Assembly (NCBI GenBank): GCA_004001285.1
Contig: AP018697.1
Location: 3,286,001 to 3,350,000, forward strand
DNA from: Arthrobacter sp. MN05-02
Lineage (GTDB): Bacteria; Actinomycetota; Actinomycetes; Actinomycetales; Micrococcaceae
Length of the DNA stretch: 64,000 nucleotides
Reading direction: 5' to 3'
The position numbers were made by a program, and so were the translations under genes. Of the stretch, positions 5,570 to 43,445 are shown in pieces. How positions within the stretch are numbered: position 1 is the stretch's first letter; each line of letters begins with the position of its first letter. A model generated the notes under the pieces. That model did no database searches. It was given only the letters and a program-made list of their open reading frames with translations, and was not told where the DNA came from.

Positions 5570-5597
5570 ACCTCACATAAGACAAATTATCGGATGT
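5570..5597 (-). repeat. dif-like Xer site 1
   Basis: Minus strand: XerC-like arm ACATCCGATAA, centre TTTGTC, XerD-like arm TTATGTGAGGT. It shares CCGATAA and TTATGT with four other sites in the window. It is the most divergent of the five. The amidase stop codon (5587-5589) lies inside the XerC-like arm, which encodes Asp-Ile-Arg-stop. Confidence 0.65.
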
Positions 5598-7338
5598 CGT
5601 TCTGCTTGTTCGTTTGTAGGGCGGTCAAGGGTGGGGTGCGGGAAGGGGCATTGCGTCGCGGCTCGCTTGTCGCTTCAAACGCGGTGCTAATGCGCAGTAG
5701 TTCGGTGTCGCTGTAGGCAGGGCCGGCGAAGGTGAGCCCGACTGGCATTTGCAGGTCCGCTGCGATGCCCATAGGCACGGTGACTGTTGGTATGCCGAGG
5801 TGTCGTGGTACGAGGTTCCCGTTAGAAACCCACACGCCGTTGCGCCAGGCGATGTCCGCAGACTCGGGATTCCGGTCGCTGTCCGAGGGCCCGATGTCTG
5901 CAGCTGCCGGGAAAACGACGGCGTCCAGACCGAGCTTGTCCATCCATTGTTCGAGGTCGACGCGCCTCGTCTGCTCGAGACCGTGTAGTCCTTCCTCGAG
6001 GTGAGGGATGCCGGTCAGATCGAGAGTTGGGTTTCGACGGATGTGTTCGGGGTACTCGGCGATGTCGTCGTCGAAGCCTGAGTAGCGGTCGAGCGCGCCG
6101 TCGGGCACGGGGAAGATCTGATTTCCGTCGACGTCGGCGAGAGACGCGCAGTGCGGGTCGTTGTTGGCCTGAAGAAAGTCGTGCCAGGCCCATGCTGAGA
6201 GGTCAGTGATTTCGTGGTGCAGGTAGTCCGGGCTTACGAGCCCTCTGGTGCTGAGCGTTGGAGCACCGGGGCGGTCGCCTTCGTAGTTGGAGACGACTGG
6301 GAAGTCGACCTCGATGACCTCGGCGCCTGCCTGCTCGAGGTCGGCGGCCGCCTGCTGCCATAGGGCAATGATCGAGTCTCGTGTCGCGATGCGCTGACCT
6401 GTTGGTCCTCCGATGCCGGGGGAGGGCGCGGTGCCGGCTTCGGGGTCGGCGTTGATGTACATACGCGGGACGCCGAATCGTTTGCCGACGAGAACCTGCC
6501 GTGCGTGGTCCGGAGTTTTCGGACTGAGCTCGATATAGCTGTCGGGGCGCAGCTTGGAGGTGGGGGGTATGGCAATCCAGGGCTGCCTACGCCAGAAGTC
6601 GCCGCGCGTTTCGGGGTCGTCGGCGACGATGACGTCGAGGACTTCGAGCATGTCCGCCATTGTGCGAGTGTGAGGGACGACGACGTCCATGGTCGGAACC
6701 AGGGGCCAGTTTCCGCGCACGGAGATGATGCCGCGGGAGGGGGTGTACGCGCACAACCCGTTGTTCGACGCAGGGGCACGCCCGGAGGACCAGGTCTCTT
6801 CCGCCAGCCCAAAGGCGGCGAAGCTTGCGGCGGTAGCAGTTCCGGACCCGTTGGAGGATCCGGATGCGAACGCGGCGGTGAGATAGTCGGCGTTGTAGGG
6901 GCTTTCGGCGCGCCCGTAGACGCCGCGCTGCATGCCGCCGTTGGCCATCGGTGGCATGTTCGTCAGCCCGATGAGGACGGCCCCACCGGCGCGGAGCCGT
7001 TCAATGGTGAAGGCGTCCTGCTGTGCCACCAGTTCCTTGAACGCGGGGGAGCCGGCGGCCACGGTGAGCCCTGTGACCTTATAGCTGTCTTTTGCGGTGT
7101 AGGGGATGCCGTCGAGCGGACCAAGGGTGGCCCCACGCGTCCTGCGCGCGTCGGAGGCGCGTGCTTCGTGCAGGGCGTCGGGATTCATGACGACAAGGGA
7201 GTTCAGCCGAATGCCCCCGTGGTCGTATGCCTCGATCCGGCGAAGGTAGGCGGTAACGAGTTCCTCGCTTGTCGTCCTGCCGGTGATGAGCGCGTTCCTG
7301 AGATCGGCGATGGTCGCCTCGACAACATCGAACATCAA
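5587..7338 (-). CDS. Amidase-signature family hydrolase
   Basis: A 583-residue amidase-signature enzyme. The catalytic Lys is K83 in LDGIPYTAKD, the cis-Ser lies in ASGSSNGSG (about 158-166), and the nucleophile position is Ser185 in EETWSSGR, where most members have TDTGGSIR; this is a substituted but recognisable motif. It is translationally coupled to the upstream agmatine deiminase (ATGA overlap at 7335-7338), so hydrolysis of N-carbamoylputrescine or another amide from agmatine breakdown is the obvious hypothesis. In known pathways that step is done by the unrelated nitrilase-family AguB. About 25 C-terminal residues run into dif-like site 1, which supplies the stop codon. Confidence 0.85.
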   Translation of the reverse strand: MMFDVVEATIADLRNALITGRTTSEELVTAYLRRIEAYDHGGIRLNSLVVMNPDALHEARASDARRTRGATLGPLDGIPYTAKDSYKVTGLTVAAGSPAFKELVAQQDAFTIERLRAGGAVLIGLTNMPPMANGGMQRGVYGRAESPYNADYLTAAFASGSSNGSGTATAASFAAFGLAEETWSSGRAPASNNGLCAYTPSRGIISVRGNWPLVPTMDVVVPHTRTMADMLEVLDVIVADDPETRGDFWRRQPWIAIPPTSKLRPDSYIELSPKTPDHARQVLVGKRFGVPRMYINADPEAGTAPSPGIGGPTGQRIATRDSIIALWQQAAADLEQAGAEVIEVDFPVVSNYEGDRPGAPTLSTRGLVSPDYLHHEITDLSAWAWHDFLQANNDPHCASLADVDGNQIFPVPDGALDRYSGFDDDIAEYPEHIRRNPTLDLTGIPHLEEGLHGLEQTRRVDLEQWMDKLGLDAVVFPAAADIGPSDSDRNPESADIAWRNGVWVSNGNLVPRHLGIPTVTVPMGIAADLQMPVGLTFAGPAYSDTELLRISTAFEATSEPRRNAPSRTPPLTALQTNKQNDIR

Positions 7339-8468
7339 GGCACCGTGACCATGTGGGGGGCGGGCTGCTGCTGCGTGATGCAGTGAATACCCCCGCCGAA
7401 GGCGAAGATGTCGCGTGCGTCGACCAGTTCAACCGTGCGATCAGGGTAGGCCTCCTGCAGGATCCGCTGTGCAACGGCATCGTTGGGGTCGTCGAAGGCG
7501 CAGAGGACGACGACACCGTTGGCGACATAGTGGTTGATGTAGGACCAGTCGACGAACTCGTCCTCTTCTCTGATGACGGTAGGGGCCGGTACATCGACGA
7601 TCGTCAGTGCCCGTCCCTCCGCGTCGACAGCTGCCTCGAGTGTGGAGCGCAGAAGCCGGGTGACGGTGTGGTCGGGGTGGTCGGGGTTGTCCTGGCGGTG
7701 AAGGAGAACCGTGCCGGCCGCGGTGAAGGAGGCGACGATGTCGACGTGCCCGCGCGTCCCGAATTCCTCGTAGTCACGGCTGAGTCCCCGCGGGAGCCAG
7801 ATCGCGTGATGTGTTCCGAGTCGAGCGTGTACTTCTGCTTCCACGGAAGCTTTAGTGGCGGAGGGATTCCGTCCGGGGTCCAATTGCACTGTCTCGGTGA
7901 GCAGCACGGAACCGCGTCCGTCGACGTGGAAGCCCCCGCCTTCGTTGACGAGCGGGCTGCTGATCGTCGGGACATCTGCCAGGTCGGTGACTTTCCGGCC
8001 GACCTGTTCGTCCTGGCCCCACGCAGCCCAGGACTGGCCGCCCCAGCCATTGAAGATCCAGTCGACGGCCTGCACCGACCCGTCCCCACTGTGGATGAAG
8101 GTCGGGCCCGAGTCCCGGAGCCAGGCATCATCAAGTGGTACGGGATGAACGGCGATGCCCGGTCCCAGCATGGTCCGGGCGGTATCGAGGTCTACCGGGT
8201 CAGCAATGACCGTGACCGGCTCATGACGGGCGATGGTGTGGGCGACCCGGACCCAGGCTGTGCGGGCGCGGGCCAGAGTGTCACTGCCAGGCAGCCCGAA
8301 GGTGTCATTGGAGGGCGGAAAGGCCATCCAGGTGCGCTCGTGAGGTGCCCACTCGGCGGGCATGGTCGTCCCGCCCGGTACCCCAGACCGATCTTTCGCT
8401 GGGTCGGTTGTCGCGTCTGTTGCCTGATCGGTCGCCGTGCCGGGCACAGCGGTCTCTGGAAAGTTCAT
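7335..8468 (-). CDS. aguA: Agmatine deiminase / peptidyl-arginine deiminase family
   Basis: A 377-residue guanidine-modifying enzyme of the agmatine deiminase family. The N-terminal MPAEWAPHERTWMAFP block, the DSGPTFI strand, HVDIVASF and the C-terminal catalytic Cys363 in GGGIHCITQQQ are all in place. It hydrolyses agmatine to N-carbamoylputrescine and ammonia in the cytoplasm. The ATG at 8466-8468 is preceded by GAGAAGAAG. Putrescine oxidase, an APC permease and a coupled amidase are neighbours, which supports a polyamine role. A 40-residue fragment of a related gene is present at 51.1 kb. Confidence 0.88.
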   Translation of the reverse strand: MNFPETAVPGTATDQATDATTDPAKDRSGVPGGTTMPAEWAPHERTWMAFPPSNDTFGLPGSDTLARARTAWVRVAHTIARHEPVTVIADPVDLDTARTMLGPGIAVHPVPLDDAWLRDSGPTFIHSGDGSVQAVDWIFNGWGGQSWAAWGQDEQVGRKVTDLADVPTISSPLVNEGGGFHVDGRGSVLLTETVQLDPGRNPSATKASVEAEVHARLGTHHAIWLPRGLSRDYEEFGTRGHVDIVASFTAAGTVLLHRQDNPDHPDHTVTRLLRSTLEAAVDAEGRALTIVDVPAPTVIREEDEFVDWSYINHYVANGVVVLCAFDDPNDAVAQRILQEAYPDRTVELVDARDIFAFGGGIHCITQQQPAPHMVTVP

Positions 8469-8714
8469 GGATCTTCTTCTCGTTGTGGTGAGGGCTGGAG
8501 AATGGAGGTTTCTCGCAGGCCCTTAGTCGGTTTCCGGTCCTGAGCAGTATTCGCACCGGGGTTTGCATGGAGGATCTACTGGTGCTTCGCGATCTCCGGT
8601 TGGGGCGGGAGCGGGTGGGAGTGCTTGGCGGTGGTTCAAGGACATCGGGGTGTTTCCCTTCCCTGCAGGCATGAGCTTGTCAGCGGTCATCGGTCGTGGC
8701 GTTGAGGCGGGAGG

Positions 8715-10265
8715 TCACTCGGGGATGACGAGGGCGGAGGACTCCTTGGTGAGTGTCTGTCCCTTGAAGAATTTGGGATTGCGGGCCCGGATGACCAGCA
8801 TGAGGACGGCGCCGACCACGAGGATTCCGATTCCGATGACGAAGACGAGGCCGACGCCGAAGAGTTCCGAGCCGCTACCGAAGGCGGGGTCCCAGCTGTC
8901 GATGGCGGTCTGCAGGAACACGACGATCAAGCCCAGGCCGCCGAGAAGGGGCGCCAGGAAGCGGAACAGGAGGTTACGGACGCTGCTGAAGAGGGATGCT
9001 CTGAAGTACCAGACGCAGGCCAGTGCGGTCAGTCCGTAGTAGAAGCAGATCATCAGTCCGAGGGCCTGGATGGTGTCGTTGAGGACGTTCTCGCTGATGA
9101 TACGCATCAGGACGTAGAAGCCGCCTGACAGGACGCCGGCGAAGATCGTGGCGTAGACGGGTGAGTTGGTGTTCGGGTTCACGGACCCGAACCTGGCGGG
9201 CAGGGCCTTGTAGTAGCCCATGGCGAGCAGGGTGCGCGCGGGGGACACGAAGGTCGACTGCAGCGACGCCCCGCAGCTCGAGAGGACGGCCAGCGACAGG
9301 AGGATCGCGAACGGGCCCATGACGGGGGCTGCGAGGGACGTGAAGATGTTCTCCGAGTTGTCCGGATTGTTCAGGCCGATGCCTGTGTCCCCGGTGCCAG
9401 CGAACATGATCGTGGCGATGGAGCCGATCAGGTAGATCGCGAGGATGACTGCCGCAGCGATCGTCGCTGCCAGGCCTGAGGTCCGGCGCCCGTTCTTGGC
9501 TTCCTCGCTCACTGTCAGGCAGACATCCCAGCCCCAGAAGGCGAAGATCGACAGCGACAGGCCGGCGGCGAAGGCCGAGAAGCTCTCAATGCTAAGCGGG
9601 TTGAACCATTCCCAGCTGAAGGCCAGGCCGGAGGCGGTACCTGCCGCAACGCGGGCGAAGGCCTGGATGGTGTACCAGGCCAGGACGATCAGCTGGAATC
9701 CGACGAGGACGTACTGCACGGACTTGGTGGTGCGGATGCCGCGGCAGGACACCCAGACGGCGATGGCCATGAAGACCAAGCACGTGACGATGTTGACGGC
9801 CTTGTTCGTCGTCAGGTCCGCGAGGGAGTCGTTGCCGGTGAGTTGTGCCAGGAACAGATAGAAGAAATCGACGGCGACGCCGGCCAGGTTGGAGAGCACG
9901 ATGATGTTGGCCGCGAGCAGGCCCCAGCCGCCCATCCAGCCGATGAACGGTCCGAAGGCCTTGGTGACCCAGGTGAAGGTGGTGCCGCTGTCCGGGGAGT
10001 CGGCGTTGAGTTCCTTGTAGGCCAGGGCGACCAGGAACATGGGGATGAACCCGACGATGAAGATCGCGGGAAGGTAGACGCCGATCTCTGCCACTGTGAG
10101 ACCCAGCGTGCTGGTGAGAACGTAGGCCGGGGCGATCGTGCTGATGCCGATCACGACGATCGCGAGCAGGCCGAGTTGTCCTCGTGCCAGGCCCTTCGGG
10201 GACAGGGAGGGCGTATCCAGGGGTGTGCGCACGGTGCTGGTCGCTCCGCTGACGGATTTGTTCAT
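8715..10265 (-). CDS. APC-superfamily amino acid/polyamine permease
   Basis: A 516-residue protein with about 12-14 hydrophobic segments, belonging to the AA_permease_2 group. The first helix pair contains GISTIAPAYVLTSTLG, and FTWVTKAFGPFIGWMGGW follows, as in APC transporters. It lies between putrescine oxidase and agmatine deiminase on the same strand, so uptake of agmatine, putrescine or a related amine is likely. A 246-bp gap with no recognisable feature separates it from aguA, and a 147-bp gap from the oxidase. The substrate cannot be read from sequence. Confidence 0.85.
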   Translation of the reverse strand: MNKSVSGATSTVRTPLDTPSLSPKGLARGQLGLLAIVVIGISTIAPAYVLTSTLGLTVAEIGVYLPAIFIVGFIPMFLVALAYKELNADSPDSGTTFTWVTKAFGPFIGWMGGWGLLAANIIVLSNLAGVAVDFFYLFLAQLTGNDSLADLTTNKAVNIVTCLVFMAIAVWVSCRGIRTTKSVQYVLVGFQLIVLAWYTIQAFARVAAGTASGLAFSWEWFNPLSIESFSAFAAGLSLSIFAFWGWDVCLTVSEEAKNGRRTSGLAATIAAAVILAIYLIGSIATIMFAGTGDTGIGLNNPDNSENIFTSLAAPVMGPFAILLSLAVLSSCGASLQSTFVSPARTLLAMGYYKALPARFGSVNPNTNSPVYATIFAGVLSGGFYVLMRIISENVLNDTIQALGLMICFYYGLTALACVWYFRASLFSSVRNLLFRFLAPLLGGLGLIVVFLQTAIDSWDPAFGSGSELFGVGLVFVIGIGILVVGAVLMLVIRARNPKFFKGQTLTKESSALVIPE

Positions 10266-10412
10266 GGTGCGCCTTTTCTAACGGGGCAGCAGGTCATCGT
10301 TGACCCGTGCAGGGAATGTGGTGGGAGAAGGTCTGGGTTGCAGGTGGCAGTGGTGTTTCATACCAGCTGGTGACGGGCACGGTTGCGCTCCATCACCAGC
10401 CGGGCTGTCCGG

Positions 10413-11807
10413 TCAGGCGTGTACGCCGACCGGGTGAGAGGCGAGAACTTTCGCGATCCGTCCCGCAGTGAGCTGGCCCATGCGGATGGCGCCGTCGACG
10501 TGCTGGTAGCCCTCGGCCGCGAGGTCGGAGCTGGCCCAGTAGATCGGACCGACGGGGGTGAGCTGGTGGCGGGCGTAGCGGTGCAGGCCGCCGAGGTCGT
10601 AGCTGGCGGCGTAGGCGCCTCGGGTCCATTCCTCGGAGGCCCAGTCGGACTCGTAGTAGACCTCCGGGGTGAGCGCTTCGGGTCCGAAGAACTCTGCGAT
10701 GGACTCTAGGATGAGCTGGCGTCGTGCCGCCGGCTCAAGGTCGAACATGGCGTCGGCTTTCTCATCTGAGATGAAACCGACGAGTGTTCCACGGGAGTCC
10801 TCGTGGTTGGTGTTGTCGTAGACCTCCTGCACGATGGAGCCGGCGCTGAAGCCTGTGCCGCTGAGTCCGTGGTCGCGCCAGAACGGGATGGCGTAGACGG
10901 CGTGGACCTTGATGACCAGACCGAGGGACTGGTGCTGGTGCATCTGGTGCTGCCGGCGGGGAAGGGCCGGTTCGTAGCTGATTCGCGAGTAGAGGTTTGG
11001 CGGGACGGCGACGACGGCGTAGCGGGCGTTGACCGTGACGTCATCGGTGATCGCCTTGACGGCAGTAGTGCCGTTGTCGTTCAAGGAGTGGCGCAACGTG
11101 CGTACGGGACTGTTCAGGACGACGGAATCTCCGAGGTCTGCGGCCATTCGTTCGGAGACGGACTGCATCCCCCCGATGACCCGCTTGTCGAGGATGAAGT
11201 CTTCGTCCACCAGGTGTGAGAACGATCCTGCCGAGGCTGCCATGAGCACGGCCTGCAGGGCGGAGAAGGCATGGGCGGGTTTGGTCAGCATCCCGCCGGC
11301 GATGAAGAGGCCTATATTTTTGCAGGCCTCCTCGTCGGCGGACTGCTGCCGGAGCCAGTGGTGGAAGGAGATGATGTCCAACTCGCGGGCCTGAGGGTGC
11401 TTCCACGGAGCCGCTGGGTCCATCTGGGCCGCTAGATCATCGAGGATTCCGACGAGTCGCTCCATCTCTGACTGTGTCTCGGGAAGCGCCGGGAACATCT
11501 CCCCGGTGTAGCGGGTGGCTTTGCCCTCGGAGCCGATATACAACGATTCCCCCTCGCGGTATCGCGAGTATGTTCCGAGTCCGAGCTCGTCCAGCAGCCC
11601 GATCAACGCGGTCTGGTCCGGGGACACCCACTGGCCGCCGATTTCGAGCATGGCGCCGTCGATGATGTCGGTGTGTGTGCGCCCCCCGACACGGTCACGG
11701 GCTTCCAGGACGGTCACGGAGTGCCCGGCCCGGCGAAGCTCCCTGGCGGTCATCAGGCCGCAGGGTCCTGCTCCGACGATGACGACATCGCTGTCAATGG
11801 TGCGCAT
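10413..11807 (-). CDS. puo: Flavin monoamine oxidase, putrescine oxidase type
   Basis: A 464-residue FAD amine oxidase. The N-terminal Rossmann motif is VVIVGAGPCGLMTARELRRAG, followed by LEARDRVGGRTHTD and the GGQWVSPDQ strand; the C-terminal FAD contact is in GYQHVDGAIRMGQLTAGRIA. The overall resemblance is to actinobacterial putrescine oxidase, which converts putrescine to 4-aminobutanal with H2O2 release. There is no signal peptide, so it is cytoplasmic. It is divergent from the TetR gene at 11879 and leads the amine operon. The substrate assignment rests on family resemblance plus aguA next door. Confidence 0.82.
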   Translation of the reverse strand: MRTIDSDVVIVGAGPCGLMTARELRRAGHSVTVLEARDRVGGRTHTDIIDGAMLEIGGQWVSPDQTALIGLLDELGLGTYSRYREGESLYIGSEGKATRYTGEMFPALPETQSEMERLVGILDDLAAQMDPAAPWKHPQARELDIISFHHWLRQQSADEEACKNIGLFIAGGMLTKPAHAFSALQAVLMAASAGSFSHLVDEDFILDKRVIGGMQSVSERMAADLGDSVVLNSPVRTLRHSLNDNGTTAVKAITDDVTVNARYAVVAVPPNLYSRISYEPALPRRQHQMHQHQSLGLVIKVHAVYAIPFWRDHGLSGTGFSAGSIVQEVYDNTNHEDSRGTLVGFISDEKADAMFDLEPAARRQLILESIAEFFGPEALTPEVYYESDWASEEWTRGAYAASYDLGGLHRYARHQLTPVGPIYWASSDLAAEGYQHVDGAIRMGQLTAGRIAKVLASHPVGVHA

Positions 11808-11838
11808 GGTGCCCCTCTAGTAATGACCGACGCCACAA

Positions 11839-11855
11839 AATGAATGGCGTTCATT
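11839..11855. promoter_or_regulatory. Inverted-repeat operator between puo and the TetR gene
   Basis: AATGAA, TGGCG, TTCATT: a perfect 6-5-6 inverted repeat in the 71-bp divergent intergenic region. Its position and form suit a TetR dimer that represses both its own gene and the amine operon. Confidence 0.6.
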
Positions 11856-11878
11856 AATTCTGGATTACTGTAGAGGAC

Positions 11879-12607
11879 GTGGCTGATTTTGCGCAACCCC
11901 AGGTGAACTCATCGGAGCACGCCGTCGTGCCCTCCCAGGACGTACCGCGCCGGGCCGGGAGACCACCGAGGAGGGTCCTGACCCGGGACCTCATCACCCG
12001 GTCGACCCTCGAGCTCCTTGAGTCGGCCGGTTATGAACGCTTTACGATGGCGGCCCTTGCAAGGACGCTCCAGGTGGCGCCGTCTGCTCTGTACAACCAC
12101 GTGGAGTCCAAGAAGGACGTGCTGCTGTGGGTCCAGGACCATCTCATGGGTCTGGTCGACACCACCGCGTTCGAACATCAGCCCTGGTATGAGGCGCTGC
12201 GCGAATGGGCATGGTCCTACCGGGACATCTTCGCCCTGCACGCCCCTTTGATCCCGATCATCGCGGTCATGCCGGTCGGAGGAGCGCCGGAAACGTTGCG
12301 GATGTACGAGCAGGTTGCCCGCGGCCTCATCAACGGCGGCTGGCCCCCGGAGCGTGTCGTCCCTGGCATCGTGGCGATCGAATCCTTCATCTACGGCTCG
12401 GCGCTGGATGTGTCGGCGCCGGAGAACATCTTCGACGCAGGCGGCCTTGCGGAGAAGTTCCCGATCTTCACTTCCGCGGTTGCGAGCAGCAGACCCCCCG
12501 GGCCTCATGAAAACCGAGCTGACACTGCCTTCGAGGGCGGACTGACCGCAATGATCGACGGGCTGCGCGATCAAATCGCACAGGAGGGCCCCGTCACCAT
12601 AGATTGA
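11879..12607 (+). CDS. TetR/AcrR-family transcriptional regulator of the amine operon
   Basis: 242 residues: an Arg-rich N-terminal extension (GRPPRRVLTRDL), then the TetR HTH with YERFTMAALARTLQVAPSAL and YNHVESKKDVL at about residues 50-85, and a C-terminal ligand domain of the TetR_C class. It starts at GTG 11879 after the divergent operator. By position it controls puo, the permease, aguA and the amidase, probably responding to an amine. Its stop codon (12605-12607) lies inside the XerD-like arm of dif-like site 2, mirroring the amidase at the other end of the module. Confidence 0.85.
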   Translation: MADFAQPQVNSSEHAVVPSQDVPRRAGRPPRRVLTRDLITRSTLELLESAGYERFTMAALARTLQVAPSALYNHVESKKDVLLWVQDHLMGLVDTTAFEHQPWYEALREWAWSYRDIFALHAPLIPIIAVMPVGGAPETLRMYEQVARGLINGGWPPERVVPGIVAIESFIYGSALDVSAPENIFDAGGLAEKFPIFTSAVASSRPPGPHENRADTAFEGGLTAMIDGLRDQIAQEGPVTID

Positions 12608-12629
12608 CATAACGCTGGTTATCGGCGAT
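12602..12629 (-). repeat. dif-like Xer site 2
   Basis: Minus strand: ATCGCCGATAA, centre CCAGCG, TTATGTCAATC. It closely matches the actinobacterial dif consensus as I remember it. It separates the amine module from the glucuronide module and contains the stop codon of the TetR gene. Confidence 0.75.
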
Positions 12630-12721
12630 TCTCAAATGTGTCTCAAGAGCAGTTGGTTTCTCCGATGTGCTGTAGTGATGCGTGACTGATGCAAGCGGTG
12701 CAGAGTGCGGATCGGTACAGC

Positions 12722-13000
12722 TCAGGGTGCGACTGCGCTGACGAGGGTGGCTCGGCGACCGGAGCTGATGGTGGGCTCGGTTGTCGCTTGCTGATTCGCT
12801 ACGAGGATCTTGACCAGATTGGACACGGTGGCTTGGGACAGGCCGGTACGCAGTGAGAGTTGCCGTTGTGTGGCAGGGCCGTTCTGCTCCGAATCCTTTA
12901 GGAGTGCGCTCACATTGCGCAACCGCAGCGCCTGTTGGGAGCCGGATCCCTGAAGTCCTGCATCCACATGCGACGTCCTTGCACTCGACACAATCGTCAC
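12722..13000 (-). pseudogene. Truncated ROK-family regulator (HTH only)
   Basis: A 92-residue frame with a ROK-type helix-turn-helix (TQRQLSLRTGLSQATVSNLV, then SGRRATLV at the wing) that stops where the sugar-binding ROK domain should begin. Full ROK repressors are about 380-400 residues. It lies between dif-like site 2 and the terminator of the GH3 gene. It is probably the stump of a regulator cut off when the boundary formed. An HTH-only protein that still binds DNA cannot be excluded. Confidence 0.65.
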
Positions 13001-13071
13001 TCCTGCTCACTCCTCCACAACCTCGCACATGATGAGTGCGCTGAATGTACTTGCTCACCTGCCGGGACGCA

Positions 13072-13105
13072 CGCCGATCCCTCGAGAGAAGTGGAGGGAT
13101 CGGCG
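13072..13105 (-). terminator. Hairpin terminator after the GH3 gene
   Basis: A perfect 12-bp inverted repeat, CGCCGATCCCTC (13072-13083) and its complement (13094-13105) around a 10-base loop. It lies 10 bp beyond the GH3 stop codon and marks the end of the glucuronide operon. There is no strong T-run. Confidence 0.65.
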
Positions 13106-13115
13106 GACATCTTGC

Positions 13116-15599: not shown

Positions 15600-15708
15600 T
15601 AGTGTGGCTCCTTTAGTGCGGGTGACGGGGCGCGGCGACGTGTGACGCGAACTGGATCTCTATGCTGCTGCTAGGGCACCAAATATGGGCTCCGCGCCAG
15701 TGGCGTCG

Positions 15709-17532
<1,824 letters not shown>

Positions 17533-31123: not shown

Positions 31124-31139
31124 CGTCGTAAACTTTCGA

Positions 31140-32732: not shown

Positions 32733-32809
32733 TGACGTCACTCTTTTCAGGTTTGGCGTGGTGGGTCCCGTCCGGCTTTCATAGGTCGTGCCGGACAGGC
32801 CGGGTTCAT

Positions 32810-33862: not shown

Positions 33863-33937
33863 GGACGTTCCTTCTTTCCGGGTGGTTCCTCTCGGCGGCT
33901 CTGCCGGGAGGGATGTTTATTGAGATAATGGTGGTTT

Positions 33938-36900: not shown

Positions 36901-37282
36901 ACTTGTCGTAGCCGATGTGGATGCGGCCGCCAAGCTCAGGCAGGATGACCAGACGCACCCACTGGTTCTCGAGGTGAACGGCCTGCCACTCGTGCGGCAC
37001 TTTCTCGGGATTGATCCGCTCGTGGAACGGCAGCGGGTAGACCCTGCCGGATGAACCCTGATACACCCGGTTCCCTAGGAATGCGGGGTAAGCGCTGGGC
37101 TCATCCGGCAAGTACGAATCGATGATCATGGGTTCCACCCACGCCGCTACCGGCTTGCTGGTCTGGCTTGCGGGAACCGGAGGGAGGGTAATCCTAGATG
37201 CAGCCTGAGGACTGTCGGGAAGGGCTACTCGAGGGCTTTCGTGCTGCGCGGTGGGGTTCTCGACGTTGAGCATGCGGTCCAT
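33938..37282 (-). CDS. DUF5107 protein with C-terminal TPR repeats
   Basis: 1114 residues. Residues about 50-480 are a DUF5107 domain, a galactose-mutarotase-like beta-sandwich (LPELGGRIHIGYDKSADYDFFYRN, SGGVEFNWPQHHRP, LLWWANVAAAVN-type strands, HWADRHVAPGKKQWTWGN). Residues about 540-1100 are tetratricopeptide repeats (EAVRRDPMHVGANTAMGALRD, YFRLGLNL-type pairs, GFYSKALELDPEDSKLVFEYD). There is no signal peptide, so it is cytoplasmic. It leads the ABC operon and is divergent from an AraC regulator, so a carbohydrate role is likely; a glycosidase or sugar-binding function is plausible but not shown by recognisable catalytic residues. Confidence 0.82.
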   Translation of the reverse strand: MDRMLNVENPTAQHESPRVALPDSPQAASRITLPPVPASQTSKPVAAWVEPMIIDSYLPDEPSAYPAFLGNRVYQGSSGRVYPLPFHERINPEKVPHEWQAVHLENQWVRLVILPELGGRIHIGYDKSADYDFFYRNNVIKPALVGLAGPWISGGVEFNWPQHHRPATFLPTDFHLEEEADGAVTVWCSDHDPMNRMKGMHGIRLRPGSSVIEARVRLYNRTSDKQTFLWWANVAAAVNNGYQSFFPTDVAHVADHAKRATATFPEVEGTYYGVDYSAQVSEAKPDGNRLDWYRNIPVPTSYMVTATQDDFFGGYDHGRDAGFIHWADRHVAPGKKQWTWGNAEFGYAWDRNLTDEDGPYVELMAGAYTDNQPDFSYLHPGETKTFSQYWYPIRGIGPAHQANLEAAVRFDVVPLDSSTDVRIGITTTRHYPELRVTVTGLGAEVLYTETVDAQVGEPVILTPELGTRYDADDLTVTLAAAEVELLSWSSMPSDRPLPTPTLATEPPAPAAVGSTDELFYTGQYLEQYRHATRSPEPYWLEAVRRDPMHVGANTAMGALRDRSGQFPKAERFYRTALDRLVARVTTPATGETHYRLGLNLTHQDRDDEARDFLEKAAWDAGWVVPARFVLAQVDARAGRWKACEEHLSKVLAHDTGHSQAQCLLALTLDKLGKPVEARGQVDAVLSCDPLDQWARHIAGLELTKDGATLLDVALEYAAAGFTEAALQVLDEATTAAAHTAPGQVNVAPLVQYHRAHLLSLAGRRAEAALAAASARAAYATHCLPSRLSDIKALEHAAGEYQHDGLAPTLLGHWYYDAGRYDDAILAWTQGTTRQLDSGQLKVAYRNLGVAAFNVRHDPIAAVGFYSKALELDPEDSKLVFEYDQLILRAGRTAEDRLRFLEQRAHLISERDDLTVVYARLLTEAGRATEARNLLLGRAFQPWEGGEGQVLAAWEEALIALAESAHSPQESVDLLQQALNLPLNLGEARHPLANRARLVWLLGEAHHRAGNEGAAHQAWEEAASAQGDFINMSDMPYSTHTFYSVLALRRLGRDTEAADLTCKLANFTDELAGTPAQVDFFATSLPSMLLFHDSPQSQQEQLVMSLRAQLRELAS

Positions 37283-37310
37283 CGTAGGGATTCAGCATCG
37301 ACGGCACGTA

Positions 37311-37340
37311 GGACAAAACAGTGGTCTTTTTGGACAAAAC
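37311..37340. promoter_or_regulatory. AraC-type direct repeats between DUF5107 and araC genes
   Basis: GGACAAAAC occurs at 37311-37319 and 37332-37340, a 21-bp period, in the 83-bp divergent intergenic space. Direct repeats two helical turns apart are the usual binding pattern of AraC-family dimers. Confidence 0.6.
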
Positions 37341-37365
37341 GATGATTTAAGGGAGTCTGGTCGGT

Positions 37366-38235
37366 GTGCATATAGCCGAGGGGTTCCCGGGTCAGCGCCT
37401 CTTTGTACTACCGCATCCGCAAGTGTCGGTGGCCTTGAACCAGCCGGGAACCTCCCACCTGGTCGTTACTGCCTGTGGATCCTTTCCGCATGCGCGGTCG
37501 CACGGTTTCGTGAGGGCGGAGCCGATCTCGCAGGCAGTGATACTCGTCTGCGCCGATGGCGGTGGGTGGTGCGAAACACCTGCAGGACGCTTCCCGGTTC
37601 GCGCTGGTCAGGTGGTAGTGCTGCCGCCTGATCATCCACACGCCTACGGGGCTGACGAGGAGAACCCTTGGACGCTGTGGTGGCTCCATGTGGCAGGCAG
37701 GGACCTGAGCGAGTTCCTTGACGCTGCGGATATGACCATGAATGCGCCCGTACGCGACTTGCCCGACCTGTACGGAATAGTCGCGTTAGTCACCGAAGTG
37801 GTGCAGCGCATGGAAAGGGATTCTACAAATGCGAGCCTTCTCGCAGCTGCCGGCGCAGCATGGCACGTGATGGCGCTGCTCGCCTCAGCGAGGAGCACGT
37901 CATCGTCCGCCCGCAATGCACTCATCGATGAAGCAGCGGCATATCTGCGCGCGCACTACCTGGAACGGACAAGCGTTGCGGAACTGGCTGCGCGAGCCAA
38001 TCTGAGTCCGTCGCACTTCGCTGCTTTGTTCGCTAAGCAAATCGGTGAGCCAGTGCTCCGCTACCAAACCCAGTTGCGCATGACGCACGCCCGGGAACTG
38101 CTCGATACGACGGGATACAGCATCGCCAGGGTCGGTGAACTTGTAGGCTACTCCGATGGTTTCTACTTCTCGCGGCAGTTTCGCGAGGTTCACGGAATGA
38201 CAGCCCGGCAGTACCGGGCCCAGAACAAGGGGTGA
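37366..38235 (+). CDS. AraC-family transcriptional regulator
   Basis: 289 residues: an N-terminal cupin sugar-sensing domain (GQVVVLPPDHPHAYGADEENPWTLWW at about 80-107) and a C-terminal double HTH (SVAELAARANLSPSHFAALF, then YSIARVGELVGYSDGFYFSRQF). GTG 37366 has GGGAG ten bases upstream. It is divergent from the DUF5107-ABC operon and is inferred to activate it when its sugar is present. The 21-bp direct repeats between the genes are the likely sites. Confidence 0.9.
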   Translation: MHIAEGFPGQRLFVLPHPQVSVALNQPGTSHLVVTACGSFPHARSHGFVRAEPISQAVILVCADGGGWCETPAGRFPVRAGQVVVLPPDHPHAYGADEENPWTLWWLHVAGRDLSEFLDAADMTMNAPVRDLPDLYGIVALVTEVVQRMERDSTNASLLAAAGAAWHVMALLASARSTSSSARNALIDEAAAYLRAHYLERTSVAELAARANLSPSHFAALFAKQIGEPVLRYQTQLRMTHARELLDTTGYSIARVGELVGYSDGFYFSRQFREVHGMTARQYRAQNKG

Positions 38236-38559
38236 ACACGATCGACCAGTAATTCATAGCCGGCGAAGGCTGCATCTACCAAACAAACACCATCCCCGGG
38301 ACTAGATCGGCACAGCCATGCGCTTCCTCGGCGATTCACATCTCCAGCAACGCGAGCCGAAACACGTCGCTTTGCCCGTCTAGGTCCGCACTGGCCCATC
38401 AGGTACACCGTCGTGCCCTGACATTGTCGGAAATTCGTCGTCTCAGCCGCCCTTGCGGGTGCAGCCCTACCCTTCCGTGAGGGCGGTCAAGCGGATTCTG
38501 TAGTCTGAGTGCCGCGGCTCAGTTGCTCTAAGCCACGGCGGAGGACATGAAGCTGATGG
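38236..38559. other. Convergent intergenic region with a hairpin
   Basis: No gene is visible in these 324 bases. GCCGCGGCT (38511-38519) and AGCCACGGC (38531-38539) form a stem with one mismatch, a candidate terminator for the epimerase gene or for araC. Otherwise I see nothing. Confidence 0.4.
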
Positions 38560-39495
38560 CTACCCGCCTAGCCTCCGCAAGACCCACTCGACGTGGACCG
38601 ACTCTCCTGGTGCGAGCACGCGAAGGTCACGGCCCGAGTTCAGCGCATCCGGAGGGCAGGTCATGGGTTCAACGGCCAGCGCATGACGATGAACAGGACT
38701 CCCCGGCACATCGGTCGTGTACAGCTGCACCCACTTGCATTCAGCACTCAACTCGAGTTCAACTCCTGTCCTCTGCCCGTTGAACAGGCGGACTGTCGCC
38801 CGACCGGTTCCGTCCCTCGCAAGCCCCGTGAAGGCATTGTTCAAAACCGTTTGCCCGATCTTCCTCGGCGTCCGGAAGTCGAAACAACCCCGCTCGTACT
38901 CATCGACATACACAAGTTTTTGCGGCAGGTATCGGACCGGGTCCACAAGCAGAACCTCGTTGGCTGGCAGTTCCAGGGTCCAGCCGTCCACAGCTGTGGG
39001 GCCGGGGTTCCCTGCGAGCAGATAAGGGTGCCCACCCATCCCAAAAGGTGCGCTCTCCATACTCTCATTCGTGGCAGTGACACTTTGTGTCAGTCCTTCT
39101 TCCCGCAGCACGAAGCGCACATCAAGTCGAATGCTCCACGGATAGCCGGGTTGAGGGCCAACCATCGCCGTCAACGTGAGCTCCTGCGCTCCTTCACTAA
39201 TGGGTGTGAAGTCGAGGTCGGATACCAGCCCATGTGAGGCATTGCCTCGCTCGGGTTCATTCATTGGTAGGGCGTATGCGCTGCCCCTGAACCGGTATTC
39301 CGCGTTGGCGGTCCGGTTCGGCCACGGGGCAAGCAGGGCTCCTCGCATTGCCGGGCGTTCCTCAGCGGCATCGAACGGCATGAGCAGGTCCACCCCGTGG
39401 CAGGAGTAGCCCCGCAACGTTGCCCCGATGCTGGCGATATGAGCTTCAGAATCGCCTACCTTCAGCACGTACTGTTGGCCCGAAATGGTGCGCAT
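38560..39495 (-). CDS. Aldose 1-epimerase (mutarotase)
   Basis: A 311-residue galactose-mutarotase-family protein: GATLRGYSCHGVDLLMPFD near the start, substrate-binding NRTANAEYRF, catalytic His in PFGMGGHPYLL, and catalytic Glu in ALAVEPMTCPPDALN. ATG 39493-39495 has AGAGG nine bases upstream, and an upstream in-frame ATG at 39531 gives 12 extra residues. It interconverts anomers of a sugar brought in by the neighbouring importer. It is transcribed alone, convergent with araC. Confidence 0.87.
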   Translation of the reverse strand: MRTISGQQYVLKVGDSEAHIASIGATLRGYSCHGVDLLMPFDAAEERPAMRGALLAPWPNRTANAEYRFRGSAYALPMNEPERGNASHGLVSDLDFTPISEGAQELTLTAMVGPQPGYPWSIRLDVRFVLREEGLTQSVTATNESMESAPFGMGGHPYLLAGNPGPTAVDGWTLELPANEVLLVDPVRYLPQKLVYVDEYERGCFDFRTPRKIGQTVLNNAFTGLARDGTGRATVRLFNGQRTGVELELSAECKWVQLYTTDVPGSPVHRHALAVEPMTCPPDALNSGRDLRVLAPGESVHVEWVLRRLGG

Positions 39496-40194
39496 TGACC
39501 CAATCCTCTTGAAAGTCCCCGTCATGTCCAATTCCTGAGCAAAGACCCATTGGGCCCTTCCTGCTGCTGTTGATTCCCCAGCTGGCTTTCAAGGGAAGCG
39601 CGCGTCGTGCCGCGCCCGCAAGTCGATGTTGCTTCAAAACAGCCAGCTACACGTCAACTATCTGTGGTGGATGCGGGCTACTAGCCCCTTGCCGCTGGAC
39701 ACTACCGTCGTCGTGACAAGAGGACGGGCAAGGTCATCGTCATGCTCTCTGTTACTGGTGCGGGTTCCGTCAAGGTAGCTGATGCCAGCTACCAGATGAA
39801 CCATCCAGCTACGCGACACCGCCGGCTTCCGTTCCCCTCGCACACCACTCGAGCACGGAAAAATTATGGACGAGGTGATGGATTCACTTGCTGGGCGCCG
39901 AGATCGGTGATCTCACCCGGACTCTCACGTGTGACCGTAGGCCGGTGGTTCGAATCCAATCTGTAGATCGCGCCGTGGCGCTCTTCGCCGAACTGCTGAC
40001 CACGCTAGAGGAAACTGGTACCGGCGGACATTCTCGCATCTTCAGGTGTCGCAGGGCAGCTACTCATCCGCTTGGCTGACGCTTTGGACCAAGCTCTGCG
40101 GCTCAGTTCTGTCGGTGGCAGAGGAGTTTGAGCGCGGATCCCGAGGCAGTGTTTCTCGGTAGCGAGGCGGTAGAGCATCGGCTGCGTCAACATC
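39496..40194. other. Gene-free stretch left of dif-like site 4
   Basis: About 700 bases hold the epimerase leader and then only short unsupported frames. A stretch around 39940-39960 contains GGTTCGAATCC, the core of a tRNA T-arm, but no complete cloverleaf can be built around it. No protein family is recognised. Confidence 0.4.
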
Positions 40195-40222
40195 AGTTGA
40201 CATAGTATTAATTATCGGCGAT
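40195..40222 (-). repeat. dif-like Xer site 4
   Basis: Minus strand: ATCGCCGATAA, centre TTAATA, CTATGTCAACT. Of the five this looks nearest to the actinobacterial dif consensus as I recall it, and its AT-rich centre is typical of true dif. It lies 63 bp beyond the sdpB stop. Confidence 0.78.
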
Positions 40223-40285
40223 CTCGCGCTGCGCCAGACGGAGTGCTTAGTCTGCCTGCCAGACGTTGTGGGTTTCGTTGTGAGA

Positions 40286-41251
40286 TCAGCCGATGCTGTT
40301 TGCGGTCGGTGACGCGTCGGGTCTGGCTTGAGAAGCTAAACCCTCTGGATACTGGTTCGACTCCTGACGGATAGTTGTCTTCCAAGCGAGTGATGTTGCT
40401 GCGAGGACTCCGCCGATCATGACCATGCCGAAGGATCCGAGGCCGATCATCAGGATGATCATGACGTGTAGTGCAGCGGCGAGAATGAATGCGAGGCGTT
40501 GCCATGGTCGGGAGGAAAGGATCAGCACTGCGATCGCGAGTTCCGTGATCATCGTGCCCCAGGTGGCGGCGACGGCGAGCAAGGGAACCGCGGTTACCTC
40601 ACGCATCAGGCCGGCGAGCGGTCCCGTCACACCGAAGTACTCCATGCGCGTTACATAGTAGACAGCCGAACCGTCTTGCCAGGCCTCTACGGCCATTTTG
40701 GAGATGCTGCTGTTGAGGTAGATATATGCCATCTGAGCACGGAGAAGCCAGTGCGCAGCCCAACTCAACCCGTAGAAGCGTCCTCCAAGGCTGTTCGGTT
40801 GAGTGGAGCGCGACCATACCCAGTACCTTGTGTCCGACAGGGAGATCAGCGCGATGCATACGGTGATTGCGACCGCGGCCTGGTCTCCTCCCTCTGGAAG
40901 GTCGATCGCCAACACGATCGACAGAGCGACATATAGGTGCACCCAGCTCATGATGCGGGGTGCGAAGCCAAGGGCGATAAGTACCAACGCTCCGATGAAC
41001 AGCCACCTGACCATCTCTGGTGGCGCCCAGCAGAAGGCAGAAAACGACCAGGAGGTATCGCACCTGGCCAGTGCTGGCTGCTCCCCCACTGGAACGAACA
41101 TGTTCGAAGTAGGGGTCGTGAGGAGTAGCGACAGCTGCGCAAGAGCTACTAGGACCCGTCCTATGTCGAAAGCTCTATTAGCTATGTCTGTACTTGCACC
41201 CAGAGATGCAGCGACCGCAGACGTTATGGCACCGATGCGGTCGGTCAGCAT
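40286..41251 (-). CDS. sdpB: SdpB-like membrane protein of an SDP-type antimicrobial peptide system
   Basis: A 321-residue membrane protein with about seven to eight helices and an HTTM-like layout (RAFDIGRVLVALAQLSLLL, WAAHWLLRAQMAYIYLNSSISKM, SAVYYVTRMEYFGV). As SdpB does in Bacillus, it would help convert pro-SdpC into the active peptide together with SdpA. Its ATG overlaps the sdpA stop by 7 bases. It is the last gene of the sdpI-C-A-B cluster, just before dif-like site 4. Confidence 0.82.
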   Translation of the reverse strand: MLTDRIGAITSAVAASLGASTDIANRAFDIGRVLVALAQLSLLLTTPTSNMFVPVGEQPALARCDTSWSFSAFCWAPPEMVRWLFIGALVLIALGFAPRIMSWVHLYVALSIVLAIDLPEGGDQAAVAITVCIALISLSDTRYWVWSRSTQPNSLGGRFYGLSWAAHWLLRAQMAYIYLNSSISKMAVEAWQDGSAVYYVTRMEYFGVTGPLAGLMREVTAVPLLAVAATWGTMITELAIAVLILSSRPWQRLAFILAAALHVMIILMIGLGSFGMVMIGGVLAATSLAWKTTIRQESNQYPEGLASQARPDASPTANSIG

Positions 41252-41880
41252 GTCACTTCCAAGTGGGACACTCTCTCATCGATTCTCCATCCCGAGTAGT
41301 CTGCCCGGTACGTCCAAGGAACTGGTGCGGTTTCAACCAGGAGAACCTCGCCGCAGATGGTCGGGTCGGGCGATGAATTACTCACCGGCGTTGCAGGAAG
41401 GCTTTCAAGAGCTTCTACCAAGCAGTCGTCTGACGCTACCAGATCGGCACATTCCAGCCATTCTGCATCGGAGAAACTTAGAAGAGCCATTTCCGGACCC
41501 TGGGACCGGTGGTCGCGAGCGAATCCAAACAAGTTTTCCGGGCGCGAGTTGGGAAATTCCGACGCGTTCTCAATGCTTTGTCTGTTGGAGTGCACTGAGT
41601 ATGCAGTGAGCTCAGGGGAGTCCGGAGGTTTTGTGAAGAATGACCAACTCTGGGGCATCAGCGTTCCAAAGAAGGTGCGGGCGGGCCCCCCATCCCTCAC
41701 GGACAGGACATTACTCGGCATTGTGAAGAATAGCGACAAGCCAAACAGGATGCCTACCACTACCAACGAAGCTAGGGCAAGTATTACTTGTCTTGATCCC
41801 ACTTCAGGTGAATATGTCTCGGTCCTGTGGTCGCTTTCATCGACTTTTGTTGGACTATCAGTCACTGAGGCCAGAAGCAA
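41245..41880 (-). CDS. sdpA: SdpA-like antimicrobial peptide maturation protein
   Basis: Up to 211 residues with one N-terminal membrane segment (about 31-52) and the SdpA hallmark PQSWSFFTKPPDSPEL soon after it; the rest is an extracytoplasmic or soluble domain. A GTG at 41863-41865 is an alternative start that reduces the overlap with sdpC from 23 to 8 bases. SdpA and SdpB are both needed to mature the SdpC toxin in Bacillus. Identification rests on the motif plus sdpB and sdpC neighbours. Confidence 0.82.
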   Translation of the reverse strand: MLLASVTDSPTKVDESDHRTETYSPEVGSRQVILALASLVVVGILFGLSLFFTMPSNVLSVRDGGPARTFFGTLMPQSWSFFTKPPDSPELTAYSVHSNRQSIENASEFPNSRPENLFGFARDHRSQGPEMALLSFSDAEWLECADLVASDDCLVEALESLPATPVSNSSPDPTICGEVLLVETAPVPWTYRADYSGWRIDERVSHLEVTC

Positions 41881-42556
41881 TCGTGCTGACCATCGTGTCC
41901 TTCTCGATGGTGCTGGGGGCAGATCCCTGCATCTCGGGCAAGTACACGAGATAGATGACTGTCACCGCGACACCGGCATGGAAGCCAGCCACTGCACCAT
42001 AAACAACAGCCGCGGCTCCAGCGGCCACGACTGCGGCTGCAGCCAACCAGGTAGCTGTCCACGCCCAGTTGCTGCCATTCGTGCTGTACACGTCCTTCGA
42101 CTTCGCTGGTTTCGCGTTGTACACCTTGAGCGCATATGCGTTCAGGCTTGTTGCGAACTCTTGAAGTGCTCGATCGACGTGAACGGGCGAGCCGCTTTGC
42201 AGGTTGGCCGAGATTCGGGCCACGACTTGAGGATGCGCTGCATGGTAGTCAGCAATAAGGGCGTTGGCAGCACTTCGGTCTGCGCCCTCCTCGGCCTGCT
42301 TGAAGCCCAGGGAGTCAGCGAGCCCTGGGTTGTCATCGGACACGCGTCCGTCGCCGAAGACGAGGAACTGCAGTACTTCTTCGTCAGAGTATTTCGCTTG
42401 CGGCAGTTCGGCTTTCGCTGCTGTGGCGCGCGATTCTCCGCCTACAATCTGGGTTGTGCTTGCCTGCTGGGTGGCGCCGGTAGCGACGCCGCCTCCGCTG
42501 ATAACCAACGACGTTGTCAGTGCAGCACCAACAAGCAATTTACGACGATTTTCCAT
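41858..42556 (-). CDS. sdpC: SdpC-family antimicrobial peptide precursor
   Basis: A 232-residue secreted precursor: signal peptide (about 1-28), the SdpC-family block YSDEEVLQFLVFGDG (56-70), a helical region, and a hydrophobic stretch from about 163 to 206 that corresponds to the mature toxin segment of Bacillus SdpC. No Cys is present in that segment, so the disulfide of the Bacillus peptide is absent. The product probably kills sensitive cells by dissipating membrane potential. An SdpI-like immunity gene lies 28 bp upstream. Confidence 0.85.
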   Translation of the reverse strand: MENRRKLLVGAALTTSLVISGGGVATGATQQASTTQIVGGESRATAAKAELPQAKYSDEEVLQFLVFGDGRVSDDNPGLADSLGFKQAEEGADRSAANALIADYHAAHPQVVARISANLQSGSPVHVDRALQEFATSLNAYALKVYNAKPAKSKDVYSTNGSNWAWTATWLAAAAVVAAGAAAVVYGAVAGFHAGVAVTVIYLVYLPEMQGSAPSTIEKDTMVSTIASGLSD

Positions 42557-42583
42557 GTTTCCACCATTTTTGATACTGACTGA

Positions 42584-42964
42584 CTAGTTGTGCTGATCTT
42601 TAGCAGCTTTAGAGGCGACGATTCCAGAAGTGATGAGCATCGCAATCACCAGGGCGAAGCCCGGCAGGATGATTGTTGCATTGACGGCTTGGCTGGGTTC
42701 AAAGCCGGTGATGAGTAAGGCTGTCAAGCCGGCGATAGTAGCAACAGCAGCTGCAATGGCCCCTGCTAGCACCCAAGGGGCACCTGCTTTCTGTCCCCGG
42801 CTCCACGCCTCGTCAGATGACATCGTCGCTCGTGTGCGTATGCCGATTGCCCCGTTGCGTGAGATTCGATCTTTCCGCAACATCGACGAAAAGCCGGCGA
42901 AAAGAATCCCGATCAGAATGAAGAAGACCGTCGCTACGATGAGCGGAGTAGTAGCCTCGTCCAT
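42584..42964 (-). CDS. sdpI: SdpI-family immunity protein
   Basis: A 126-residue protein with three membrane segments (about 7-25, 61-84 and 94-115) and the SdpI/YhfL signature RNGAIGIRTRATMSSDEAW (36-54). In Bacillus, SdpI protects the producer from SdpC. It is first in the operon here, so immunity is made before the toxin. AGGGGG precedes the ATG. The Bacillus system has a separate sdpRI operon; no sdpR is seen here. Confidence 0.85.
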   Translation of the reverse strand: MDEATTPLIVATVFFILIGILFAGFSSMLRKDRISRNGAIGIRTRATMSSDEAWSRGQKAGAPWVLAGAIAAAVATIAGLTALLITGFEPSQAVNATIILPGFALVIAMLITSGIVASKAAKDQHN

Positions 42965-43417
42965 GCGTCCCCCTGCGTGGTGTTGAGTGATTTCAACAGT
43001 CTCATACGTGCTCCGGAGATTTCAAGCGAGTAGTCAAAGGTTGAACCTTGAACAATCGCTGACGCTGGTTCATGCCATTGCATCTATTACATCTTCGGCG
43101 TGTTAGCGACATGCAGTACTTACTTCGTTGCATGAGTTCGCTCGGCGACGAGACGCTGACTTAATCCCAGGCGTAGGTCCAGAGTTGGCTTGCGACACCC
43201 GCATTGGAGAACGCCCAACCTATTGTCCTGTCAACTACGCCGTCTGAGTACCTCTCGTCCACCAGGGCATTACCCGGCTAAAGCAGCGCGTCCGTGGCGT
43301 CTCGTCGCGAATCCGAGCTGATCAATGCCCTGTTGGTCCTGGGGAGCACGCGCAAGCTTCAGGTTAGTTGCGTCAGAGCCCTGAAGCATTGTGGGTAACC
43401 TTCTCTCGAACCCTAAC
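42965..43417. other. Upstream region of the sdp operon
   Basis: About 450 bases hold the sdpI ribosome site and presumably its promoter. I could not pick out a confident -35/-10 pair or a regulator gene. No protein frame is supported. Confidence 0.4.
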
Positions 43418-43445
43418 GTCCGACATAGGGTCAGTTATCGGCGAT
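43418..43445 (-). repeat. dif-like Xer site 5
   Basis: Minus strand: ATCGCCGATAA, centre CTGACC, CTATGTCGGAC. With site 4 it brackets the complete sdp operon (3.2 kb between sites). Confidence 0.72.

Follow-up and report, generated by a model that had tools for sequence, protein, structure and literature searches.

Dif-like sites in direct tandem orientation are known from the dif arrays of Vibrio cholerae. Modules bordered by Xer sites have so far been regarded as peculiar to Acinetobacter, chiefly to its antibiotic-resistance plasmids. The passages of PMC6449649 cited here report that plasmids of Psychrobacter and Moraxella lack such sites, whose wide distribution they describe as characteristic of Acinetobacter. 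In that genus, chromosomal ‘dif module islands’ have been described as well (PMC12907356, passages cited), and in A. baumannii such sites are reported to fuse plasmids rather than to excise fragments, with the sequence of the site deciding compatibility (PMC11705084, passages cited). Here, we analysed 64,000 nucleotides of the Arthrobacter sp. MN05-02 chromosome (AP018697.1, positions 3,286,001 to 3,350,000; hereafter the window, numbered from its first letter), in which five dif-type sites, all in one orientation, separate gene modules for amine, glucuronide and sugar use and for an Sdp-like toxin. We consider it probable that these are XerC/XerD sites left behind where the modules joined head to tail, probably on a plasmid. 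The original prediction that catabolic operons carried by dif arrays are undescribed in Arthrobacter-like bacteria agrees with the literature matches listed, which cover few subscription journals and include no description outside Acinetobacter (be it for actinobacteria, Arthrobacter or DUF1016/YhcG). Among the matches listed for dif modules themselves, the papers name Acinetobacter, save for one on wastewater.

Results

Five dif-type sites share one orientation

The window had been predicted to hold five sites of the same orientation, each with its own 6-bp centre, and a search recovered all of them. The 19-mer CCGATAAN6YTATGT occurs at 5575, 12607, 29853, 40200 and 43423, on the minus strand in every case and inside 28-mers that start at 5570, 12602, 29848, 40195 and 43418 and have the 11-6-11 architecture with the arms of the host dif (Table 1). 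With up to two mismatches allowed, these were the only matches in the window; 100 dinucleotide shuffles of it contained 0.46 matches on average and three at most, and five were reached in 0/100. The predicted fit to the actinobacterial dif consensus was borne out, too, as the arms of the site at 12602 match the suggested dif of Frankia alni (CACGCCGATAATGCACATTATGTCAAGT; PMC3025954, passages cited) at 9/11 positions each, by eye. Arms were further scored with a weight matrix (maximum 48; trained on 49 sites, some of them from the window itself), for which the reversed-sequence control of the same 1.04 Mb reached 6.9 at best. Judged by their sequence, the five window sites are dif-type sites.

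The genome comprises a chromosome of 3,488,433 bp (C1) and a 155-kb second replicon (C2; 154,991 bp). The pattern TCGCCGATAAN6TTATGTCAA, at up to three mismatches, gave nine matches in the whole genome versus none for the reversed pattern: four in the window (site 5570 is too degenerate for this pattern), one each at C1:1812109 and C1:206849, and three on C2 (77437, 82635 and 84460). The match at C1:1812109, with the centre TTTACA, is taken as the native chromosomal dif because it lies opposite dnaA (C1:194), 52% of the way round. Clustering against an empty control and a dif in the expected place both speak for the sites as predicted. The window array does not sit at this dif; it lies 1.48 Mb away, near the origin (3.29-3.33 Mb). 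Across the genus, 38/38 genomes have at least one match at no more than two mismatches, and 30/38 have one with the centre TCTACA, presumed to be the native dif of these 30 genomes. Chance matches or the binding site of a regulator would fit the poor outer arms of two of the five window sites; against 0/100 shuffles, zero control matches, the clustering and the breakpoints described below, we give this reading practically no weight. A chance origin of the sites was rejected on the shuffles and on the nine versus zero matches genome-wide.

Homology breaks at dif-type sites in the genus

We scanned 1.56 Mb of stretches from this genome and its relatives, which held a site, yhcG or a window homologue or flanked the window and hence do not give genome-wide rates. 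The scan returned 66 sites with scores of at least 12 in 25 genomes, and its reversed control none over 8. When the 4-kb flanks of these sites were compared all against all (homologies of at least 80 bp, in register; those starting or ending further from the site unclassed), 48 homologies started at the site and ran rightward, five came from the left and ended there, and none crossed. The left flanks of the right-hand homologies differed from each other. An end of a homology block of at least 300 bp lay within 12 bp of 21/66 sites, compared to a mean of 3.3 and a maximum of 9 upon random placement of the sites, and a mean of 6.8 and a maximum of 14 upon local shifting (300 trials each). Neighbouring sites less than 30 kb apart had the same orientation in 18/18 pairs; sites in both orientations, as in Acinetobacter, were not seen. 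These alignments support dif-type sites as breakpoints of homology within the genus.

Homology between two copies of the amine module ends inside a site

The closest view of a border came from relative G008 (G denotes genomes, C their contigs), which carries the amine module at G008_C20:17221-23975 (88% over window 5585-12015, 89% over 12216-12578), 5 kb beyond its presumed native dif (C20 12186). Homology stops inside site 1, after the XerC arm. The two sites, CATCCGATAA.TTTGTC.TTATGTGAGG here and CATCAGATAG.TTGATT.TTCGTCAGCC in G008, have an unusual left arm in common (CATCCGATAA and CATCAGATAG), and their right arms and everything beyond differ: in MN05-02, a dif flank and yhcG follow; in G008, sequence of the palindrome type introduced below. 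The opposite end of the homology falls 24 bp before site 2, a place where G008 has no site. Of the predicted coincidence of module borders with sites, the amine module shows one border exactly at site 1 and the other 24 bp off site 2. The G008 copy is the best single piece of evidence for a module border at a site.

Along G008_C20, a site at 1916 is followed by a set of genes that includes alpha-L-rhamnosidase, sugar-binding-protein and GH3 genes; then come the presumed dif at 12186, a relic of yhcG, the amine module and, near 23950, a degenerate site (matrix score below 10; found by alignment only). Catabolic modules therefore also stand in direct-repeat order around a presumed native dif.

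Host XerCD and rival recombinases

MN05-02 encodes a XerC orthologue at C1:2009601 (323.8 bits, just below the curated cut-off of 335) and a XerD orthologue at C1:1375910 (341.4 bits, over its cut-off). A PF00589 search of the window (E up to 0.001) turned up no tyrosine recombinase. With no other candidate in the window, and with site arms that match the host dif, XerCD is likely to act on these sites. A third tyrosine recombinase occurs twice in the genome, with equal score, at C1:209559 and C2:36138; around it, a 4.2-kb stretch is 99.4% identical between C1:208528-212712 and C2:33540-37720 and is perhaps a RIT-type element.

In some relatives, tyrosine-recombinase elements adjoin the sites. 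One sequence follows the native dif and two extra sites of G023, each time starting a few bases beyond the XerD arm. Each of the three contigs terminates in 77 bp that also form the start of G023:C48, and C48 (L307 1-3832) encodes a 375-amino-acid tyrosine recombinase, a 151-amino-acid helix-turn-helix-like protein and a 508-amino-acid second recombinase-like protein (named by eye). On a single contig, G013 has a related element (L308 ~2304-5953; 85% over 3.0 kb) beside its presumed native dif. In both genomes, the element lies ~5 bp from the XerD arm in constant orientation, the habit of a dif-hunting element, here of non-DDE type. A second element type stands after the native dif in G011 and after a plasmid-borne site in G010 (the same ~75 bp by eye); it is found at L058 1525-1600 and L109 8498-9397, and the G010 copy lies 436 bp from a tyrosine recombinase. 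Such elements treat extra sites and the native dif alike and would offer a rival recombinase, none of which was found in the window.

Were the sites worked by the tyrosine recombinase of a mobile element (RIT-like or similar), dif being merely its target, one would expect what is seen in G013, G023, G011 and G010, and a relative of the element recombinase is indeed present twice in MN05-02. These two copies lie 2.4 kb and ~40 kb from the nearest site, however, and none is in the window; four recombinase queries had a match within 3 kb at only 3/66 sites (two more, in G023, run into the element at contig ends), and the 11-6-11 arms match the host dif. We consider this explanation unlikely.

Insertion elements that target dif-type sites could also generate breakpoints, without any recombination of modules. 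A repeated element accounts for the G023/G025 pair, so that at least one of the five left-hand homologies is an insertion beside the site; its interpretation as a module swap was rejected. The G010/G011 left-hand homology is probably an insertion too, and Acinetobacter has insertion sequences of such habit (PMC10132070, passages cited). This fits poorly with site 1, neither of whose two flanks is such an element, and with right-hand homologies whose left flanks differ from each other, and we deem the explanation very unlikely for the breakpoints as a whole.

yhcG, traG and a palindrome accompany the sites

Read on the strand of the sites, the order traG, sites with modules, and yhcG reading back towards the last site is shared by the island that holds the window array, by the organism’s own C2 and by G024_C25, as well as by G014_C14 if that contig is circular. 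On C2, only the N-terminal part of yhcG remains; in G024_C25, 0.84 kb lie between two sites. A complete yhcG stands alone between two direct sites in G022_C12, G032_C3 and G006_C1, and yhcG also lies beside the native dif, intact in G005 and as a relic in G003 and G008. In total, 20/45 yhcG loci of the genus were within 600 bp of a site (random mean 4.9, maximum 10 of 500). A clean empty site for the G006 site-yhcG-site unit was not found, as MN05-02, G001 and G034 share other sequence there. In G003:C15 (~5935-10023; L161), the same place holds ~4 kb with a yhcG remnant and no site above threshold, perhaps a decayed insertion at the same spot.

As a universal companion of dif, yhcG was rejected. 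Among the best 80 of 580 named yhcG loci, viewed from -1400 to +800 bp of the stop codon, only three had a dif-like match. These three, one of which is G022 itself, contained four matches, two of them with 2 mismatches; five further dif-like matches were elsewhere in the 80 loci.

Twelve named plasmid regions were scanned, 11 of them for yhcG and one (A. agilis) for traG, and seven of the 12 had no site above 9. The A. agilis region with the traG match was without a site, one of the C2 sites used as a query of the plasmid collection gave no match, and two module DNA queries gave no record covering 80% of either. Sites scoring >30 lie 56 bp after yhcG on Dietzia pI (L188 9085) and 84 bp after it in Arthrobacter TMP15 (L183 10134). 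Weaker ones were seen in Arthrobacter StoSoilB3 (20.4, at 131 bp; L186 13154), where genes for LacI, mannitol dehydrogenase, RspA and gluconokinase follow the site, and in NicSoilB8 (12.2, at 110 bp). The Cryobacterium plasmid region has a site scoring 43.1, but 6.5 kb from yhcG.

The palindrome GTCAACN4GTTGACG, one mismatch allowed, overlaps the XerD arm at 16/66 sites, including sites of relatives and of C2. GTCAAC words number 395 in the scanned regions, and 16 have the second half at that distance, 15 at sites and one elsewhere. In G026, it is longer and repeats the entire arm in inverted form (TTATGTCAAC-ttag-GTTGACATAA). Exact actinobacterial dif-like 24-mers were also present in 28 viral-contig stretches, and no yhcG was found in those with sites; five of the contigs (L277, L280, L285, L291, L294) have similar sequence for ~35 further bases and, on this likeness, are perhaps phages that use host Xer.

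The array lies in a plasmid-like island

The sites fall within an island of ~49 kb with a low guanine-cytosine (GC) fraction, 0.57-0.66 in most 2-kb steps (0.682 at 14 kb), as compared to 0.65-0.74, mostly ~0.70, outside. According to comparison with relatives, it lies between a Rieske-type gene (named from the encoded protein) and mscL, beginning ~1.36 kb before the window, near C1:3284643, and ending at ~48083. Two relatives lack it at this locus and have 228 bp (G006) or 689 bp (G001) instead. The right-end traG region has similar counterparts in G014_C14, G010_C1, G024_C25 and G022_C82, and ~107 bp beside site 1 are 74% homologous to the right flank of the native chromosomal dif of MN05-02. 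Two traG pieces were the only transfer genes among the 40 window proteins given to Pfam, which included no integrase. With traG at its right end, a yhcG remnant at its left end and no site at either outer end, the island looks like an integrated piece of a conjugative-type plasmid, and we infer a plasmid origin for the whole of it. As its outer ends are without sites, its arrival near the origin would not have been by Xer integration at these sites.

All modules in the window are bounded on both sides by dif-like sites (Table 1). Each interval had been predicted to carry one function, and the content is broadly as said, save that a traG fragment (29259-29753) lies beside site 29848 within the glucuronide interval. 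The SKI-family kinase of that module would be a gluconokinase. The last module contains genes for SdpB, SdpA, an SdpC-like protein (75.7 versus a curated cut-off of 99.2) and SdpI. On C2, the sites between 77437 and 84460 bound a multiubiquitin protein with a DUF6791-ThiF protein and an M78 peptidase, followed by an AAA ATPase, possibly a ubiquitin-like defence cassette.

Table 1 Sites, modules and accompanying features of the dif-type array, in window coordinates
Feature	Position	Strand	Description
yhcG 3' part (DUF1016/PDDEXK)	4986..5526	+	reads towards site 1; left-end remnant
dif-type site 1	5570..5597	-	ACATCCGATAA.TTTGTC.TTATGTGAGGT; score 13.3, degenerate; amine module border
amine module	5587..12607	mixed	amidase, agmatine-deiminase-like, amino-acid permease, amine oxidase (all -); TetR (+, 11879-12607)
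weaker palindrome copy	12592..12608	-	2 mismatches; at site 2
dif-type site 2	12602..12629	-	centre CCAGCG; score 41.7, near consensus; overlaps tetR 3' end
glucuronide module	12630..29847	-	GH3, GH2, SKI-family kinase, MR/MLE dehydratase, Mannitol_dh, UxaC; peptide-type ABC transporter, binding protein, LacI, traG fragment
traG C-terminal fragment	29259..29753	-	TraG-D_C, plasmid type; ends ~95 bp from site 3
dif-type site 3	29848..29875	-	centre CGCGCC; score 19.1
sugar module	29876..40194	mixed	ABC permease, ATPase, binding protein, DUF5107/TPR protein, AraC (+), aldose epimerase
palindrome	40185..40201	-	GTCAAC-N4-GTTGACG; overlaps XerD arm of site 4
dif-type site 4	40195..40222	-	centre TTAATA; score 36.5
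Sdp module	40223..43417	-	sdpBAC-like toxin operon 40286-42556; SdpI-like immunity gene 42584-42964
dif-type site 5	43418..43445	-	centre CTGACC; score 24.7
plasmid-type traG with DUF4913	45121..47085	-	region 84.5% identical to C2:58593-61427 of the same genome
island right end	48022..48083		plasmid homology stops at 48022; chromosomal homology (mscL side) from ~48083; no site

Discussion

In the account that we propose, the modules came together head to tail and in a single orientation, probably on a plasmid of conjugative type and beside its traG. Host XerC and XerD would recombine compatible sites on two replicons, either two plasmids or a plasmid and the chromosomal dif, and form a cointegrate. 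After this had resolved or decayed, a new module would stand flanked by two hybrid sites, to each of which one parent had contributed the left arm and the other parent the right arm. The plasmid segment that bore the array, flanked by yhcG remnants on one side and by traG on the other, would then have entered the chromosome, between the Rieske-type gene and mscL, through some process other than Xer recombination at the sites of the array, enabling the host to use the amine, glucuronide, sugar and Sdp genes. The array may by now be frozen, because the centres of all ten sites in this genome differ and compatibility depends on the site in Acinetobacter; in this strain, it is probably quiet.

In addition to the inserted elements above, several observations weigh against this account. 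The arms of three of the five window sites are weak, and two of five are near consensus by the weight matrix; some of the 66 sites (those scoring 12-20), such as G004:2779903, may be false. Many of the 48 right-hand homologies and ~10 of the 21 sites share dif-flank/yhcG sequence and are non-independent, and the raw count of block ends was not significant (45 versus a random mean of 9.5 and maximum of 54; local-shift mean 21.1, maximum 66). The traG fragment breaks the picture of one function per interval. No dif-like site was found at either outer end of the island, even at a low threshold. Finally, for the glucuronide, sugar and Sdp modules we found no relative with the start or the end of such a module at a site, the relatives being too distant for a base-level comparison of these borders, and stretches of G004, G014_C15, G031 and G211 contain related amine and glucuronide operons without a convincing site (the one weak match in G004 scores 12.8).

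Part of this would sit well with the sites being relics of plasmid dimer-resolution or cointegrate sites, between which homologous, insertion-sequence or illegitimate recombination assembled the blocks, so that borders coincide with sites by accident, except at site 1: the island ends lack sites, traG intrudes into the glucuronide interval, related operons do without sites, and the border comparison rests on one module, that for amines. Such an origin leaves the site-centred breakpoints, the constant orientation and the hybrid arms of the amine module unaccounted for, and strikes us as rather improbable. We retain the joining of modules by XerCD as the probable account. The tandem array mobilised by Xer that had been predicted is supported in part, by the direct, dif-type sites, the breakpoints and the amine border; Xer would be the likely agent, and the outer ends stand apart from the scheme.

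A broader possibility, which we advance tentatively and hold to be somewhat less probable than its converse, is that dimer resolution in Arthrobacter and some related actinobacteria doubles as a genus-wide network of gene exchange. Native dif, plasmid sites and island sites would trade flanks and carry catabolic operons as direct-repeat cassettes, the centre would act as a compatibility code, the palindrome would mark a class of sites, and tyrosine-recombinase elements would hunt all of them. Centres do recur between genomes (CCGACG in 6). Avoidance of equal centres within a genome was rejected, however: equal centres are not significantly rare (1/114 pairs, in G014, against 2.0 expected; 813/2000 shuffles were as low), which counts against the array account as well. 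A rule that makes the centre a code is thus unsupported by the statistics, and this weighs against the network.

If the proposed joining by XerCD is true in these soil actinobacteria, XerCD would be a more general route for metabolic gene exchange. It would help to explain how catabolic islands are assembled in Arthrobacter, and the centre-compatibility rule could be tested directly in a second phylum. What is new here is that the dif modules are directly repeated, actinobacterial and catabolic.

Among known systems (each compared on the passages cited), the dif (pdif) modules of Acinetobacter (PMC6449649, PMC13141974, PMC12907356) share with this locus 28-bp sites that resemble the host dif, have variable centres and lie between accessory genes, and further the occurrence of arrays on plasmids and chromosomes, toxin cargo and site-hunting elements. 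They differ in comprising C-internal and D-internal modules, whereas all sites are direct here and the host is an actinobacterium; in Arthrobacter, moreover, the cargo includes large catabolic operons in intervals of 7-17 kb, sites are often beside yhcG, some have the XerD-side palindrome, and a conjugative-type traG is nearby. The IS1202 family resembles the Arthrobacter elements in its single orientation, its distance of ~5 bp from a Xer arm and its use of native dif and extra sites, but the latter encode tyrosine recombinases instead of a DDE transposase and lie on the XerD side (PMC10132070). Integrative mobile elements exploiting Xer (IMEX; PMC9765430) likewise have direct tandem dif-like sites and no integrase of their own was found here, and the G008 array is at the presumed native dif as theirs would be; the window array, in contrast, is 1.48 Mb from dif near the origin, carries metabolic rather than phage cargo and has no known free circle. 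For the mechanism, Xer cointegration in A. baumannii (PMC11705084) is the model that suggests itself, by analogy from outside Actinobacteria. Of the two parallels originally drawn, to Vibrio and to Acinetobacter, the locus does not conform to a Vibrio-type array at dif, and a plasmid-borne array of the Acinetobacter kind that entered the chromosome comes nearest to it.

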